From a bacterium A37T11 (GTDB taxonomy: Bacteria; Bacteroidota; Bacteroidia; Sphingobacteriales; Sphingobacteriaceae): 64,000 bases of DNA. Positions 247 to 61,480 of the stretch are shown here, piece after piece (the first letter of the stretch is position 1; each line of letters begins with the position of its first letter). The position numbers and the translations under genes are program-made. The notes beneath the pieces are model-generated. The model was not told the origin of the DNA, made no database searches, and saw nothing but the letters and a program-made list of their open reading frames with translations. The DNA lies in assembly GCA_900109895.1 (NCBI GenBank), contig FOBR01000015.1:1-64000 (forward strand), written 5' to 3'.

Positions 247-1359
247 ATGTCAAAAACCCTACTCAAATACATTTTATTAATTTTTCTTTACAAAAATAGT
301 TATGCACAATCCCTTGAAGAAAATTATACCAGCCAGTTTCAAGAACTTATTCCATTTACTAATAGTTATCTGAATGCATTCAGCCATAGTTTTTTGGTTA
401 ATGCAGGATTTTCCCTTAATCATGGGTGGACGTATGCGATAGATCCAGGCAAATTTGGCTCAATACGTGTTTCGCTGGTCACATCAAGTGCCTTAATTCC
501 AAATAGTGGAGGCTATTTGAATACTGATCAAATATATCAAAAGCCGAATTTAGAGATTTCCGGATTAGTCGCAACAATTTACGGAGGTAAATCAACAGGC
601 ATCGCAAGTTTCTATATGTTAGATCCAGAAAATGGTAGTCGTTTATTAAACCCCATGAATGGTGAATACATTAAAGGAGATTTTGAACTTCCTGACGGTC
701 TTGGTACTAACATTGGAGTTACTCCCATTGTAATTCCTGAGGTGGAAGTTGGTGTAGGGTTAGGCACTTCAGTATCTATTCGTTTTTTGCCACTTTCTAT
801 TAAAATTGACAAAGGAAATGCTTCCATTAGCGCTTACGGCTTTGGCATCAAACATAACTTATTACAATATATCACCTCATCGTCAGAATCTGGTTACCAC
901 TTTAATTTTTTTGCCTCTTATATGCATGACAAATTAAAATATGTCCCAAACAGTGGAGATCTATTTGAAATATCAGGTAACTATTTTAATTCTCAAGGCA
1001 GTGAATTAACTATTGCTCATCAAAGCAATGCAATTCAAACAGTCATTTCCGGAAGCTATACAAAAGGAAAATTTTTCACCATAACGGCACAGGCTGGTGC
1101 CAGTTATCAACAAAGCAGGTTGCTTAGCAGCGGTGATTTACAAATCAATATACTTATACCGGAGATCAGTAGTACAATCTTCAGCACCCACGTTCCTAAC
1201 CTTATTCATCTGGTTCAATCCCGATGGACCCCTCATATCGGAGCCGGGGTGCTTGTGGGTAGTGGAGCATTCCAAACCAGTATACAATATGCTTATATTA
1301 ACACACATATGTTGGCATTAGGCCTGCACTGTCAAATTTACAATGTAAAAGAACGTTAA
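247..1359 (+). CDS. Secreted beta-rich outer-membrane-like protein (DUF6588-like)
   Basis: This 370-residue protein opens with a hydrophobic signal peptide (about residues 4-20, ending SYAQ). The rest is Gly/Ser/aromatic-rich with alternating hydrophobic residues, as in an outer-membrane beta barrel. The stretch around GLGTNIGVTPIVIPEVEVGVG and the later KYVPNSGD region resemble the Bacteroidota family annotated DUF6588, whose function is unknown. It is probably exported and located in the outer membrane. No neighbour suggests a pathway, and I saw no clear -7 box upstream. The family call comes from memory of the sequence pattern, not from a search. Confidence 0.6.
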   Translation: MSKTLLKYILLIFLYKNSYAQSLEENYTSQFQELIPFTNSYLNAFSHSFLVNAGFSLNHGWTYAIDPGKFGSIRVSLVTSSALIPNSGGYLNTDQIYQKPNLEISGLVATIYGGKSTGIASFYMLDPENGSRLLNPMNGEYIKGDFELPDGLGTNIGVTPIVIPEVEVGVGLGTSVSIRFLPLSIKIDKGNASISAYGFGIKHNLLQYITSSSESGYHFNFFASYMHDKLKYVPNSGDLFEISGNYFNSQGSELTIAHQSNAIQTVISGSYTKGKFFTITAQAGASYQQSRLLSSGDLQINILIPEISSTIFSTHVPNLIHLVQSRWTPHIGAGVLVGSGAFQTSIQYAYINTHMLALGLHCQIYNVKER

Positions 1360-4059: not shown

Positions 4060-4695
4060 ATGCCAACTATTGAAAACATTATTTTTGATTACGGCAATGT
4101 CATCTTTGACATTGACTTTTATAAGACAAAAAAGGCCTTTACGCAATTGGGTATTCCTGAGAACAGCAATATCTTTATACATGGAAACCAGCATGGACTT
4201 TTTGACGCACTGGATAAAGGCGAAATAAGCCCTTCAGGATTTAGGGATGGGATCCGTAAATTGGCTAATAATTCCGAGCTAACAGATCAACAAATAGATG
4301 ATGCCTGGAATTCATTGTTAGTTGGAATACCTAAAGGAAATAACGAACTTCTTCTGGAATTGAAGGCCAAGTATCGCACATTCCTTTTAAGCAATAACAA
4401 TAGCATACACTATGATTGGATAATTGAATATTTAAACCGCGAATATAAAGTGCCGGATAATAGTACTTACTTTGAGAAAGATTATTATTCCCATTTATTA
4501 GGAATGCGAAAGCCCCAATCAGAAATTTTTGAATTTGTAATTCAGAAGCACCAACTTAATCCAAAGAAAACCTTATTTATTGATGACTTAACTGATAACC
4601 TTGTAGCAGCTAATAAGTTAGGAATCCAAACTGCTCTGGCAACCTGTGCTAACGATTTCAAACAATTAATTTTATCGCTTAAAATCCTGCACTAA
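4060..4695 (+). CDS. HAD-superfamily phosphatase (YihX-like)
   Basis: A 211-residue HAD subfamily IA hydrolase, counted from ATG 4060; the longer GTG frame from 4039 conflicts with the promoter box. Motif I is FDYGNVI, the form found in YihX-like sugar-phosphatases, motif II is FLLSNNN, motif III is GMRKPQSEIF with the conserved Lys, and motif IV is FIDDLTDN. Proteins of this type dephosphorylate small phosphorylated metabolites, for example alpha-glucose-1-phosphate, but the substrate cannot be read from sequence. Its 3' end overlaps the convergent barrel gene by 17 bases. Confidence 0.85.
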   Translation: MPTIENIIFDYGNVIFDIDFYKTKKAFTQLGIPENSNIFIHGNQHGLFDALDKGEISPSGFRDGIRKLANNSELTDQQIDDAWNSLLVGIPKGNNELLLELKAKYRTFLLSNNNSIHYDWIIEYLNREYKVPDNSTYFEKDYYSHLLGMRKPQSEIFEFVIQKHQLNPKKTLFIDDLTDNLVAANKLGIQTALATCANDFKQLILSLKILH

Positions 4696-6728: not shown

Positions 6729-8447
6729 ATGAGCATTGTATTATCGGAACAAGAAATACAGCGCAGGGAAGCGCTGACTGCACTCTATAATTTGGGTATA
6801 GATCCCTATCCAGCAGCAAGTTTTGAAGTGAATGTCTCCAGTAGTGACATTCATGAAAACTATGAACGCGATAAGTTGGATTATAAAAACGTGAGCATTG
6901 CTGGCCGGATGATGAGCCGCCGGATTATGGGAAATGCCTCTTTTTTTGAATTGCAGGATGCCACCGGACGCATACAGGTGTACTTAAAACGCGACGACCT
7001 ATGCCCTGAAGAAGACAAAACACTTTATAACACGGTTTTTAAACGGCTGCTGGATATTGGCGACATCGTAGGCATAACAGGCGATGTATTTACCACGCAA
7101 ACAGGCACAATTTCAATTCATGCTACTGGGCTAAAATTACTTTCCAAATCACTCAAGCCCCTTCCCGTTGTCAAAGAAGCCGATGGAAAAGTGTTTGATG
7201 CCGTTACCGACCCAGAATTTAGGTACCGCCAGCGCTATGTGGATCTGGTTGTCAACCCACAAGTCAAAGAAACTTTTAAAAAGGTTACGGCCGTTAAGAC
7301 CGCAATACGTGCTTTTTTGGATGAAAGAGGTGCATTGGAAGTAGATACCCCTGTTTTACAAAGCATACCTGGTGGTGCCGCAGCCAGGCCGTTCATCACC
7401 CATCACAACGCGCTGGACATTCCATTGTATTTGCGCATTGCCAACGAGCTTTATCTAAAACGGCTCATTGTTGGCGGATTTGATTGGGTATATGAATTCA
7501 GTCGCAATTTTCGTAACGAAGGTATGGATCGTACCCACAATCCAGAATTTACAGTACTTGAGTTTTATGTGGCTTACAAGGACTATGAATGGATGATGGG
7601 TGTAACAGAACAATTATTTGAAAAAGTGGCGTTGGCAACCAACGGAAAAACCAACCTACAAGTAGGAGACAAAGAAATAAATTTTGAAGCGCCATACCCG
7701 CGTGTCCCCATTTATGATGCTATTAAAGCACATACAGGTTTTGATGTAAGCGAAATGGATGAAATTGCCTTACGGGAGGTGTGCCGGCAACTATCCATTC
7801 CGGTCGATGAATCAATGGGAAAAGGGAAACTAATTGACGAAATTTTTGGGGGTAAATGTGAAAAACATTATATCCAACCCACTTTTATTACAGATTATCC
7901 CATTGAAATGAGTCCATTGACCAAAAAGCATCGCAACAAAAAAGGGCTGGTTGAACGTTTTGAGCTTATGGTGAATGGTAAAGAGCTGGCAAATGCCTAC
8001 AGTGAGCTAAATGACCCAATTGATCAGTTGACCCGATTTGAAGATCAGTTAAAGCTGATGGAACGCGGCGATGATGAAGCCATGTTCATTGACCATGATT
8101 TTGTGCGTGCACTGGAATACGGAATGCCCCCAACCGCAGGCATAGGAATTGGTATCGATCGGCTGGCCATGCTAATGACCAACCAGGTCAGCATCCAAGA
8201 CGTATTATTTTTTCCGCAGATGCGGCCAGAAAAAGTGAATAAGATAGCGCCATTGACAGAATATGTAAAACAGGGCGTACCTTCAGAATGGGTGCCGGTT
8301 CTTCAAAAAATGGGATTCAACACTTTAGCTGAATTGAAAAATGCCAACCCAAATAAAGTTTTTAATGATTTGGGCGGTATGAGGAAAAAATTAAAACTAG
8401 ACATTACCCTTCCCGTAAAAGAAGAGGTCATGAAATGGTTTGATTAA
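6729..8447 (+). CDS. lysS: Lysine--tRNA ligase, class II
   Basis: A 572-residue lysyl-tRNA synthetase that charges tRNA-Lys in the cytoplasm. The N-terminal OB-fold anticodon-binding domain spans about residues 55-155 (VSIAGRMMSRRIMGNASFFELQD, shown here as its first strand and turn). The class II catalytic core follows, with motif 2 FRNEGMDRTHNPEFT and motif 3 GIGIDRLAML. About 65 extra residues follow FFPQMRP (NKIAPLTEYVKQGVP to the end). That C-terminal extension is usual in Bacteroidota LysS and makes the protein longer than the roughly 500 residues of E. coli LysS. Its stop codon overlaps the convergent GH92 gene stop by 4 bases. Confidence 0.97.
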   Translation: MSIVLSEQEIQRREALTALYNLGIDPYPAASFEVNVSSSDIHENYERDKLDYKNVSIAGRMMSRRIMGNASFFELQDATGRIQVYLKRDDLCPEEDKTLYNTVFKRLLDIGDIVGITGDVFTTQTGTISIHATGLKLLSKSLKPLPVVKEADGKVFDAVTDPEFRYRQRYVDLVVNPQVKETFKKVTAVKTAIRAFLDERGALEVDTPVLQSIPGGAAARPFITHHNALDIPLYLRIANELYLKRLIVGGFDWVYEFSRNFRNEGMDRTHNPEFTVLEFYVAYKDYEWMMGVTEQLFEKVALATNGKTNLQVGDKEINFEAPYPRVPIYDAIKAHTGFDVSEMDEIALREVCRQLSIPVDESMGKGKLIDEIFGGKCEKHYIQPTFITDYPIEMSPLTKKHRNKKGLVERFELMVNGKELANAYSELNDPIDQLTRFEDQLKLMERGDDEAMFIDHDFVRALEYGMPPTAGIGIGIDRLAMLMTNQVSIQDVLFFPQMRPEKVNKIAPLTEYVKQGVPSEWVPVLQKMGFNTLAELKNANPNKVFNDLGGMRKKLKLDITLPVKEEVMKWFD

Positions 8448-57504: not shown

Positions 57505-57536
57505 TTTGTTTGTTCATAAACTATTTATCATATTTG
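57505..57536 (+). promoter_or_regulatory. Promoter of the trp leader
   Basis: TTTG at 57505-57508 and CATATTTG at 57529-57536 (7 of 8 matches to TAnnTTTG) are spaced by 20 bases. A second possible -7 box, TACTTTTG, is at 57501-57508. The first arrangement places the start of transcription about ten bases before the leader peptide ATG. Confidence 0.5.
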
Positions 57537-57549
57537 CACCGTAAGAATC

Positions 57550-57618
57550 ATGAACGTAAAATTTGTCAATATAAATGGTTGGTGGCACAGAGATTTTCTT
57601 TGTGGCATGACCCTATAA
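57550..57618 (+). CDS. trp operon leader peptide
   Basis: A 22-codon frame from ATG 57550 to TAA 57616-57618 has adjacent Trp codons at positions 11 and 12 (TGG TGG, 57580-57585). Tryptophan is otherwise rare, and this short gene lies directly upstream of a strong terminator and trpD. When tryptophan is scarce, ribosomes would stall on these codons and change the folding of the downstream RNA. No protein function beyond being translated is expected. Confidence 0.75.
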   Translation: MNVKFVNINGWWHRDFLCGMTL

Positions 57619-57661
57619 TATAAAATATTATCATAATCATTATCATAAAAAAGGGCCTGCC
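57586..57661 (+). promoter_or_regulatory. Alternative RNA helices of the trp attenuator
   Basis: CACAGAG (57586-57592) can pair with CTTTGTG (57598-57604), the 1:2 hairpin next to the Trp codons. Alternatively GGCA (57604-57607) and CCCT (57611-57614) can pair with TGCC (57658-57661) and AGGG (57652-57655), which lie in and beside the terminator 5' arm. This second helix would prevent the terminator from forming. Confidence 0.55.
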
Positions 57662-57681
57662 GAAAAAGCAGGCCCTTTTTT
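57647..57681 (+). terminator. trp attenuator (intrinsic terminator)
   Basis: AAAAAAGGGCCTGC (57647-57660) pairs perfectly with GCAGGCCCTTTTTT (57668-57681) around a 7-base loop, giving a 14-bp stem with a GC-rich core and a U tract. It is 30 bases before the trpD ATG and follows the leader peptide, so it can decide expression of the operon. Confidence 0.9.
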
Positions 57682-57711
57682 ATGCATATAGCACTTTAGT
57701 AACCCCAAAAA

Positions 57712-58698
57712 ATGAAGAAAATATTAAGCCACTTGTTTGAGCAAAAAACATTTAGCAGAAATGAAGCTTATGAGATATTGACCAATATTACGGCAGGCAA
57801 ATATAACAACGCCCAAATGGCTGCTTTTTTGACAGCCTACTGCATGCGCAGCATCCGCGTGGAAGAATTGGAGGGGTTTAGGGATGCGATGTTTGACCTT
57901 TGTGTAAAGGTTGACTTTTCGGGTTATGACCTTATAGACCTGTGTGGAACGGGAGGGGATGGAAAAAACACATTTAATATTTCTACCTTGGCTTCATTTG
58001 TGGTGGCTGGGGCCGGATATCCGGTTGCCAAACATGGCAATTATGGGGTATCATCGGGATGTGGATCATCAAACGTGATGGAATACCTGGGTTATCGTTT
58101 CACTAATGACGCTGGGGAGATAAGACGCGCGCTTGATGAAGCACAGATTTGTTTTTTGCACGCTCCCTTGTTTCATCCGGCCATGAAAACGGTGGCGCCT
58201 ATACGGCGTGAACTGGGTGTCAAAACCTTTTTTAATATGCTGGGCCCACTGGTTAACCCGTCTAATCCCCAGTATCAGTCTGTTGGCGTTTTCAGCCTTG
58301 ACATGGCCCGCTTATATGGCTACCTTTACCAACAAACCAAAAAACAATACACCATTCTCCATGCCATTGATGGTTATGATGAAATTTCCCTGACGGGCGA
58401 TTTTAAGACAATCAGCAATAGCGGTGAACATTATTTTACGCTTGAAAAACTAGGTCTTAAGCCGGTAGATCCCTTAGCGATTAGCGGTGGCGACACCGTA
58501 GAAGAAGCTGCCGGTATTTTTAAACGGATACTTCAAGGTGAAGGAACCACTATACAAAACCAGGTGGTACTGGCCAACGCGGCCGTGGCCATCCAAACCA
58601 TTCACCAGTTCAGAAGCTTTATCGATTGTTTTGAGGAGGCGAAAGATTCGCTATTGGGATTGAAGGCATTGGGGTGTTTTAATAAATTAATTCATTGA
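57712..58698 (+). CDS. trpD: Anthranilate phosphoribosyltransferase
   Basis: A 328-residue enzyme that joins anthranilate to phosphoribosyl pyrophosphate, step two of tryptophan synthesis. The phosphoribosyl-binding motif CGTGGDGKNTFNIST and the anthranilate-site KHGNYGVSSGCGSSNVME are intact, with normal family length. It is the first structural gene behind the attenuator. trpE and trpG, which usually precede it, are not in the window. Confidence 0.96.
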   Translation: MKKILSHLFEQKTFSRNEAYEILTNITAGKYNNAQMAAFLTAYCMRSIRVEELEGFRDAMFDLCVKVDFSGYDLIDLCGTGGDGKNTFNISTLASFVVAGAGYPVAKHGNYGVSSGCGSSNVMEYLGYRFTNDAGEIRRALDEAQICFLHAPLFHPAMKTVAPIRRELGVKTFFNMLGPLVNPSNPQYQSVGVFSLDMARLYGYLYQQTKKQYTILHAIDGYDEISLTGDFKTISNSGEHYFTLEKLGLKPVDPLAISGGDTVEEAAGIFKRILQGEGTTIQNQVVLANAAVAIQTIHQFRSFIDCFEEAKDSLLGLKALGCFNKLIH

Positions 58699-58740: not shown

Positions 58741-59361
58741 ATGGCGGTTAAGATAAAGATTTGTGGGATGACGGATCCTGAGAATGTAAAGGAGGTGTTG
58801 GCGTTAAAACCCGATTATCTCGGCTTTATTTTTTACCCCGGCTCTAAACGTTTTCTGGATCCGCTTCAAGCTAGTTGGGTAAAGGAGGTGCCGGGGGTAA
58901 AAAAGGCTGGTGTTTTTGTAAATGCAGGTTTGGAAGAAATATTGGAAATAACTTCTGCACTTTCATTGGATGCGGTGCAGCTACACGGATCTGAAAGTCC
59001 GGAAATATGTAAGGAGCTGAAGTCAGCTAATTTTGAAGTTATCAAAGCTATTGGTTTAAATGAAGCTTTTAGCTGGAGATCATTGGAGGTATACCAGGAT
59101 TCGGTGGATAATTTTTTATTTGACACCGCTTCTGCACAGTTTGGAGGTACGGGTAAATCATTTAACTGGGAATTATTGCAAAAATACCCTCTCCAAATAC
59201 CCTATTTTTTAAGTGGTGGTCTTGACCCTGAAAATCTATTTGCCGCTTACAGCGTTGATGACCATCGCTTATTTGCCCTTGACCTCAATTCCCGCTTTGA
59301 AGAGCGGCCCGGAATTAAGAATATATCTGTGCTAAAAAAGGCTTTGTCCTTAATTATATAA
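58741..59361 (+). CDS. trpF: Phosphoribosylanthranilate isomerase
   Basis: A 206-residue beta/alpha-barrel that isomerises phosphoribosylanthranilate, step three of tryptophan synthesis. [11 protein letters not shown] carries the catalytic Cys, [11 protein letters not shown] is a family mark, [11 protein letters not shown] follows, and the Asp region [17 protein letters not shown] is intact. It starts right after the heptad repeat and ends 4 bases before trpB. Confidence 0.95.
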
Positions 59362-59365
59362 GAAG

Positions 59366-60550
59366 ATGAGTAATTATCAAGTAAACGAAAAGGGCTATTA
59401 TGGGACGTTTGGCGGTGCCTACATTCCTGAGATGTTATATCCAAATGTCGAAGAGCTTCGTCAAAACTATCGGCAAATCATGGATGAGCCTGCCTTTAAG
59501 GCAGAGTTTGACAAGCTTATGCGCGATTATGTAGGCCGCCCGTCGCCACTTTACCTGGCTGGCAGGCTATCTGAACGCTATGGAGCTAATATTTACCTAA
59601 AGAGGGAAGATCTGAACCATACAGGTGCCCATAAGATCAACAATACCATTGGCCAGATTTTGCTGGCCCAACGGTTGGGAAAAACACGTATTATCGCTGA
59701 AACAGGCGCTGGCCAGCATGGGGTGGCTACTGCGACCGTTTGTGCCTTGAAAGGTCTTGAATGCGTGGTTTACATGGGCGAAATTGATATACAACGTCAG
59801 GCTCCGAATGTTGCACGCATGAAAATGATGGGCGCAGAGGTACGTCCGGCCAAATCCGGCAGCAAAACATTGAAGGATGCCACCAATGAGGCCTTGCGTG
59901 ACTGGATTAATAATCCGGTTAATACCCACTATATCATCGGTTCGGTTGTAGGCCCTCACCCCTATCCGGACTTGGTGGCTAGGTTTCAATCCATTATTTC
60001 TGAAGAGACCAAAAAACAGCTAAAAGAAAAAACGGGAAGCGAATTGCCTAATTATGCCCTAGCCTGTGTAGGGGGTGGTAGCAACGCTATGGGCATGTTT
60101 TATCATTTCCTGGATGATGAAAGTGTAAGGCTTATCGCCGCTGAAGCTGCGGGTAAGGGTGTGCACAGCGGCCATTCAGCAGCTACCTCCGTTCTGGGCA
60201 AAGAAGGCGTGCTTCATGGCAGTCGAACCATTTTGATGCAAACCCCCGATGGGCAGGTGATTGAGCCTTACTCCATTTCAGCAGGCCTTGACTACCCGGG
60301 TATAGGGCCTCAACACGCCTGGCTGCACAAGATCCAAAGGGCCGAATATGTAAGTATTACCGATGATGAAGCCATGCAGGCGGGTTTATTGCTCACCAGG
60401 CTGGAAGGCATTATCCCAGCCATTGAAAGCGCTCACGCCTTGGCCCAGCTTGAAAAGATGAAATTTAAACCAGAGGATACTGTGGTTGTGTGCCTTTCAG
60501 GCCGTGGTGACAAGGATCTGGATAATTATATGAAGTATTTTGGATTTTAG
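59366..60550 (+). CDS. trpB: Tryptophan synthase beta chain
   Basis: A 394-residue PLP enzyme that joins indole and serine to tryptophan. The PLP Lys is in [18 protein letters not shown], the allosteric loop [13 protein letters not shown] and the phosphate-binding [10 protein letters not shown] are intact. It is the main TrpB1 type. It lies 4 bases after trpF and about 160 bases before trpA. Confidence 0.97.
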
Positions 60551-60709: not shown

Positions 60710-61480
60710 ATGAACCGTATCAACAAACTATTTGCTAATAAAGAGAAAAAAAATATTCTTTCAATTTACTTTACGGCCGGTTATCCCGAGCTTGACAGTA
60801 CGGTAAAAATTGCCGAAGCGCTGGAAAAGGCTGGGGCGGATTTTCTGGAAATTGGCTTTCCGTATTCAGATCCGGTAGCTGATGGCCCGGTCATTCAGCA
60901 CAGTTCTGAAGAAGCCCTAAAAAATGGCATGACGCTGGAAGTATTGTTTAAGCAATTGGCCGGCCTTCGCGAAAAAGTACAAATACCCGTTTTACTGATG
61001 GGTTATGTAAATCCCGTATTGCAGTATGGCGTTGAACGCTTTTGCCAGGATTGTGAAAAAGTCGGTATTGATGGGGTCATTGTCCCGGATCTTCCCCTTT
61101 CTGAGTATGAAGAGTTTTATCAGGGTACCTTCGCTAAACACCAGCTTAGCAATATTTTTCTGGTCACGCCACAAACAGCCGATGACCGCATCCGTAAGAT
61201 CGATAAGCTTAGCACTGGTTTTATCTACCTGCTGTCATCCTCGGCCACCACGGGCAAAAACCTGCAAATATCAGAAAGTGTCAGTGAATATTTCGCCCGC
61301 ATACGGGAAATGAACCTTAACAATCCGATCGTTATTGGTTTTGGGATTCATGATAAGACTACTTTTGACCAAACCCTTAATTATGCTGATGGGGCTATCG
61401 TGGGTAGTGCATTTGTACGGTTACTTGCCGAAGAAAACTTCCTGGAACAGATACTGCCCTTTGTGCAACAGTTTAAATAG
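60710..61480 (+). CDS. trpA: Tryptophan synthase alpha chain
   Basis: A 256-residue TIM-barrel that splits indole-3-glycerol phosphate and passes indole to TrpB. LEIGFPYSDPVADGPVIQ contains the catalytic Glu and Asp, and GVIVPDLPLSEYEEF and FGIHDKTTF support the call. The active-site residues appear intact. Unlike the close-packed trpF-trpB, it is separated from trpB by a structured segment, so its expression may be set separately. Confidence 0.95.
   Translation: MNRINKLFANKEKKNILSIYFTAGYPELDSTVKIAEALEKAGADFLEIGFPYSDPVADGPVIQHSSEEALKNGMTLEVLFKQLAGLREKVQIPVLLMGYVNPVLQYGVERFCQDCEKVGIDGVIVPDLPLSEYEEFYQGTFAKHQLSNIFLVTPQTADDRIRKIDKLSTGFIYLLSSSATTGKNLQISESVSEYFARIREMNLNNPIVIGFGIHDKTTFDQTLNYADGAIVGSAFVRLLAEENFLEQILPFVQQFK

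Follow-up and report, generated by a model that had tools for sequence, protein, structure and literature searches.

The leader of the Escherichia coli trp operon carries tandem Trp codons, follows a 1:2/2:3/3:4 pairing logic and ends in a terminator that lies before the first structural gene. We analyzed a 64,000-nucleotide stretch of contig FOBR01000015.1 from the Sphingobacteriaceae bacterium A37T11 (hereafter, the window), in which a leader with tandem Trp codons, the same 1:2/2:3/3:4 logic and a terminator before a structural gene resembles E. coli trpL (RF00513) but, unlike the latter, precedes trpD of a split pathway. Another difference from E. coli is that the mRNAs of Bacteroidetes have no Shine-Dalgarno sequences (PMC6847099). 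Bacteroid-trp (RF01692), an element of the same phylum, is like the window leader in that, where read, it consists of a leader with three consecutive Trp codons (WWW) and a terminator before trpE; it is listed in Weinberg 2010 (PMC2864571) and has been placed before the trp operon of Flavobacterium psychrophilum (PMC6414381), a bacterium whose amino-acid operons provide clues to leader-peptide attenuation (PMC9723704). Streptomyces lividans has two trpL in one genome, and several of its leader peptides lack a 5' UTR (PMC8079986); thus, two Trp-dependent leader peptides per genome are found there as well, but this is a member of Actinobacteria, and we claim no relation. In Sinorhizobium meliloti, the trp genes lie in several operons and the trpL RNA starts at its own ATG (PMC7298713); there, only trpE(G) of the three operons is attenuated, whereas in the window genome both operons that we found have a Trp leader. 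In the literature searched, no paper dealt with trp attenuation in Sphingobacteriaceae or reported twin trp leaders in this family, and the family-wide twin-leader arrangement described below was not seen there; Lopatovskaya 2010 and Merino 2008 may treat Bacteroidetes.

The initial annotation of the window had described a 22-codon leader ORF with TGG TGG at codons 11 and 12, followed by a 1:2 hairpin (57586-57592/57598-57604), a possible antiterminator (57604-57614 with 57652-57661) and a 14-bp terminator (57647-57681) located 30 bases from trpD. All these elements were recovered, and the coordinates proved correct to within one or two bases (Table 1). The ORF sits between recR (end 57467) and trpD, starts with the ATG at 57550 and stops with the TAA at 57616-57618; its two Trp codons occupy 57580-57585, and the ATG of trpD at 57712 is 29 bases past the end of the terminator hairpin. 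Gene names at this locus were assigned from the sequences and are backed by matches among relatives. As judged from the sequence and its comparison among relatives, this is very probably a ribosome-mediated transcription attenuator of the trpDFBA operon.

Table 1. Features of the trpDFBA leader, its putative promoter and the genes downstream (window coordinates)
Feature	Position	Strand	Basis
Candidate -33 promoter element, two TTTG words	57505-57512	+	sequence; consensus TTTG/TANNTTTG (PMC6847099)
Promoter-like -7 box CATATTTG, first base differs from TANNTTTG	57529-57536	+	sequence; 13 nt before the leader ATG
Leader ORF, 22 codons, peptide MNVKFVNINGWWHRDFLCGMTL	57550-57618	+	sequence; conserved in relatives
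Region 1, 5' arm of the 1:2 hairpin, immediately 3' of the Trp codons	57586-57593	+	fold, covariation
Region 2, 3' arm of the 1:2 hairpin	57597-57604	+	fold, covariation
Region 2, antiterminator arm pairing with region 3	57603-57614	+	fold; core helix paired in 93.8% of cells
Region 3, partner of region 2 or region 4	57652-57662	+	fold, covariation
Intrinsic terminator, 3:4 hairpin and T tract	57646-57682	+	fold, covariation; 95.8% of cells paired
trpD, first gene of the operon under the attenuator	57712-58698	+	sequence, matches among relatives
trpF	58741-59361	+	family assignment; same order matched in 80/80 relatives
trpB	59366-60550	+	matches among relatives
trpA	60710-61480	+	matches among relatives

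The terminator arms (57646-57660/57668-57682) fold with -23.6 kcal/mol (z -6.0) and the whole leader (57550-57682) with -42.1 kcal/mol (z -5.6), with none of the 200 shuffles as good in either case. For the antiterminator, folded on 57598-57663 so as to exclude region 1 and the 3' arm of the terminator, the energy is -11.8 kcal/mol (z -1.5), and 15 of the 200 shuffles were as good; this 2:3 helix contains unpaired positions, and in the single-sequence shuffle test, the window leader yielded p 0.08 for 2:3 and p 0.017 for 1:2. By itself, the window antiterminator is not exceptional, and the case for more than chance rests on conservation. Weak Rfam matches to sRNAs such as STnc370 and OrzO-P, which fall on the terminator hairpin, are below the cut-off and were discarded.

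A strong terminator about 180 nt past the end of recR might simply terminate recR transcription, with an unrelated promoter downstream and a small ORF that arose by chance. Comparison with relatives makes this reading hardly credible. The TrpD search fetched 318 relatives, and the best 80 of these were kept; by record titles, they come from Parapedobacter, Olivibacter, Sphingobacterium, Pedobacter, Daejeonella, Mucilaginibacter and others, including some MAGs. Parapedobacter and Mucilaginibacter belong to Sphingobacteriaceae, and we take Olivibacter, Sphingobacterium, Pedobacter and Daejeonella to be members of the same family. A leader with adjacent Trp codons (WW) was detected by script within 320 nt before trpD in 76 of these 80 loci, compared with a mean of 1.2 and a maximum of 4 in dinucleotide shuffles of the same 80 stretches. 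The other four were recovered by other means: the leaders of L065 and L076, both from Pedobacter, contain WW but lie 457 and 352 nt before trpD, respectively, because an extra repeat-like sequence separates the leader terminator from trpD; L074 carries WRW; and L048 carries, by eye, a single Trp. RecR is encoded upstream in only 5 of the 80 loci (up to 3 kb examined, less in eight), and in the window a promoter-like box precedes the leader ORF. In all 80 loci, trpF, trpB and trpA come after trpD. Most relatives have three Trp codons, compared with two in the window.

From an alignment (A1) of 32 non-redundant trpD leaders, we built a covariance model (R1), which scores the four loci missed by the script at 58.7-83.9 bits and also finds both Bacteroid-trp loci given to it (L159, 58.5 bits; L162, 56.7 bits). 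Counted irrespective of the gene downstream, R1 matches are present in 120 of the 121 genomes of the order to which the window belongs, a set that may include genomes used for model building. The only genome without a match (G005, 1.7 Mb) has just a weak, paralogue-like TrpE match and, given this, probably lacks the tryptophan pathway. As a separate observation, the trpDFBA locus of L070 is flanked by matches to the Flavo-1 RNA (RF01705) at 737-819 (-) and 6822-6898 (+).

The initial annotation had held that the attenuator would be refuted if the paired bases or the Trp codons were not conserved in close relatives; in fact, the leader, the helices and the terminator are retained, with compensatory changes. 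In the 32 trpD leaders, 74.9% of the 1:2 cells are paired, with changes on both sides in six of the seven pairs and in 26 cells, compared with 9.0 in shuffled alignments (none of the 500 as high); for 3:4, both-side changes are found in 27 cells compared with 11.6 (again, none of the 500). The 2:3 structure is less uniform: the outer helix is paired in 58.1% of the cells and the structure as a whole in 76.2%, compared with 33-50.4% in slid controls, and covariation is modest (21 cells compared with 14.9; 20 of the 500 shuffles as high). In 31 trpE leaders, for which 2:3 and 3:4 were counted, the respective numbers are 15 cells compared with 6.9 and 19 compared with 4.1, with none of the 500 shuffles as high for either helix. 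These figures lean towards the model because the structures were read from the same sequences, and the shuffling of alignment columns ignores relatedness.

Shuffles of single leaders yielded p < 0.05 for 2:3 in 33 of the 77 trpD leaders and 12 of the 21 trpE leaders, and for 1:2, in 20 of the 77 and 4 of the 21, respectively; by this measure, 1:2 of the trpE leaders is weak (p 0.93 for the trpE leader of the window genome). In 75 of the 77 trpD leaders and 16 of the 21 trpE leaders, region 2 pairs better with the terminator arm of the same leader than with the median arm from the other operon type; among the 21 trpE leaders, only 4 have their own arm as the top-ranking partner of region 2. The trpE counts include some leaders for which the script picked an over-long terminator (L125) or a weak duplex (L128-L130). 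Taken together, sequence comparison supports the leader ORF, its Trp codons, the 1:2 and 3:4 helices and the core of 2:3.

Regulators of a different type, namely, a T-box, a Trp-binding protein or a riboswitch, control trp genes in other phyla and could in principle select between the terminator and the antiterminator here. This seems highly improbable: no Rfam family matches the leader region of the window at the cut-off, and what is conserved is a coding frame whose Trp codons hold a constant position beside region 1. Running the Rfam Trp_leader and Bacteroid-trp models, as the initial annotation had proposed, did not identify the window leader with either family, the scores being 31.4 bits for RF00513 (gathering cut-off 41) and 23.2 bits for RF01692 (gathering cut-off 49). 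The ribosome-mediated attenuator is a known mechanism made of known ingredients that belongs to a known functional class and to no Rfam family. As in other members of this class, a short ORF containing consecutive Trp codons lies ahead of the first trp gene, and the 1:2, 2:3 and 3:4 helices are mutually exclusive, with modest covariation for 2:3.

Under this mechanism, RNA polymerase would start transcription about 8-9 nt 5' of the leader ATG, at the predicted promoter, with the ribosome trailing on the nascent RNA. When charged tRNA-Trp is ample, the ribosome would clear both Trp codons, reach the stop codon and cover region 2, so that the 3:4 terminator would form and transcription would end before trpD. 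When charged tRNA-Trp is short, the ribosome is predicted to stall at the Trp codons and cover region 1, which would allow 2:3 pairing, read-through and transcription of trpDFBA; such would be the response to tryptophan. If the leader remains untranslated, 1:2 would form, with termination as the default. The stop codon precedes region 2 in 62 of the 77 trpD leaders, lies inside it in 2 and follows it in 13, including the window, where the ribosome accordingly would read right through region 2.

The initial annotation had considered the position before trpD rather than trpE unusual. In the family, this is not odd: the trp genes fall into two groups, trpEGC and trpDFBA, with a leader on both, and the attenuator before trpD is explained by this split into two operons, each with its own Trp leader. 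In the window genome, trpE, trpG and trpC lie on another contig and are preceded by their own Trp leader and terminator; this leader starts with GTG at L083:6796 and encodes the peptide MKLIHTTFGNWWWPLEKSAGSCYI. The same three genes are adjacent in all 20 other family genomes sampled (18 genera), and no matches to trpD, trpF, trpB or trpA were detected in the trpEGC stretches fetched from these 20 genomes. The split between trpEGC and trpDFBA thus looks like the rule of the family. Leaders with WW were detected by script before trpE in 17 of the 20 sampled genomes; by eye, the remaining three carry WCW (L128), WLW (L133), and one Trp at the usual place with another ten codons on (L131). All 29 further trpE loci of the family, 20 of them from genomes not sampled before, have a leader with at least two Trp codons (script). 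The comparison shows two trp operons, both headed by a Trp leader.

The trpE leader of the window genome extends over L083:6796-6940 (G000:C15) and combines the GTG start, located 5 nt after TAAATTTG, with WWW and a terminator. Upstream of it lies a gene (L083:6271-6723) that, judging from sequence similarity, seems to encode the same small membrane protein as the genes found ahead of the trpE leader in L128, L129, L131 and L133, and thus in several genera. In the window genome, R1 at E <= 0.001 matches one place, that in the window, and does not reach the trpE leader at this threshold. A pattern search for Trp leaders in this genome returned 346 places compared with 190 for the reversed pattern; both known leaders are among the first ones, but the search was too unspecific and was dropped as a source of further leaders.

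With a separate attenuator of the same logic before trpEGC, both halves of the pathway would answer one signal. Given the precedent of rnTrpL in S. meliloti (PMC7298713), the attenuator might work as described while its terminated short RNA or its peptide additionally regulates the other trp operon in trans. We consider this addition unlikely: each operon has its own leader, so that control in trans would be unnecessary.

Outside the family, 26 strong TrpE places were found, of which 25 were obtained as loci. Leaders with WW or WxW were detected by script in 21 of these 25 loci, from 16 families (shuffle mean 0.9, maximum 4), and those with WW alone, in 18 (mean 0.6, maximum 2). Of the script misses, two had little upstream sequence available (21 nt for L168, 160 nt for L169), and L174 has, by eye, a leader with one Trp. 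In L175, where the gene order is trpB-E-G-D, a leader encoding MRSILVNTYWWRYLQLNKS is found before trpB (about 4086-4266, -), which indicates that the attenuator follows the operon head; the leader precedes the first trp gene whichever gene that is. R1 at E <= 0.01 finds 19 of the 25 loci, including L174 and L175. TrpD is encoded downstream of TrpE in 21 of the 25, and no WW or WxW leader was detected in up to 330 nt before trpD (about 206 nt in L186) in seven trpD loci from outside the family. Among the 23 out-of-family trpE loci scored by either model (L169 was unscored, and L168 was omitted, its R2 match not being before trpE), R1 scores above R2, the trpE model, in 15; the trpD leader is perhaps the older form, but with 16 base pairs in R1 and 8 in R2 the comparison is not a fair one, and we make no claim from it.

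The Rfam families for trp leaders capture little of this. At their cut-offs, none matched in 20 of the 25 loci from outside the family that were scanned (L162, L168, L169 and L175 were not scanned), whereas the positive control L159, from family f4, scored 71.3 bits with RF01692. Within the family, RF01692 reached its cut-off in none of the 19 trpD loci and none of the 19 trpE loci, and RF00513, in none of the scanned trpD, trpE or out-of-family loci. Across 198 genomes of the phylum, scanned under strict filters that lose weak matches, RF01692 had matches in 17, of which 15 were over the cut-off; all these genomes belong to f4 and none to the family of the window. The control genome, Bacteroides ihuae (Bacteroidaceae), is matched as well.

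In 76 of the 77 trpD leaders, the ATG is preceded at a distance of 5-19 nt by a putative promoter box, NNNNTTTG (shuffle mean 12.3, maximum 26). The strict TANNTTTG is present in only three of the 77 (shuffle mean 1.6); the boxes are mostly CATATTTG or GATATTTG, with the first base off the consensus in nearly all. A looser form of the box, picked after viewing the trpD leaders, is found in 69 of the 77 (shuffle mean 2.5). In all 21 trpE leaders, 4-9 nt separate the end of the NNNNTTTG box from the start codon (shuffle mean 2.5, maximum 8), and TANNTTTG itself occurs in 16 (mean 0.2, maximum 2); all 29 further trpE loci have the box 4-8 nt before the start codon, for a total of 41 genomes. These spacings use the first in-frame start; in several leaders, a second ATG would give 8-15 nt.

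In Flavobacterium johnsoniae, the distance from the -7 element to the transcription start is 4 or 5 nt, and the start codon is preceded by more than 10 nt in 87% of the transcripts with a probable promoter (PMC6847099). By this spacing, transcription in the window is predicted to start at 57541-57542, and the 5' UTR would be 8-9 nt for the window leader and 0-5 nt for the trpE leader RNA. Because the box is located 4-9 nt before the first start in all 41 genomes, the trpE leader is predicted to be leaderless. Such mRNAs are rare in other transcript maps of the phylum, where those with under 10 nt make up 3.7% (PMC7366714) and leaderless ones 5.5% (PMC9723704).

Going further, we entertain, with somewhat less than even confidence, a single joint proposal. 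The twin attenuators of Sphingobacteriaceae would differ by design, the trpEGC leader being leaderless, with transcription beginning at its start codon or no more than a few bases away, and the trpDFBA leader having a short 5' UTR; since initiation in this phylum does not use Shine-Dalgarno sequences, attenuation would be tied to ribosome loading on leaderless RNA, and the two operons would answer different tryptophan levels. As part of the same proposal, Trp-leader attenuation would be the usual control of trp genes across the class, mostly missed by Rfam, which would imply close coupling of transcription and translation.

For annotation, it matters that Rfam misses most of the Trp leaders examined in the class, its Bacteroid-trp model being over the cut-off in one family of the 198-genome sample and one control. 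The predicted leaderless trpE leader would lend itself naturally to testing how ribosomes initiate in the absence of Shine-Dalgarno sequences. For the family itself, the findings suggest that a pathway split over two operons could stay coordinated by RNA alone, with a tryptophan sensor on each half.
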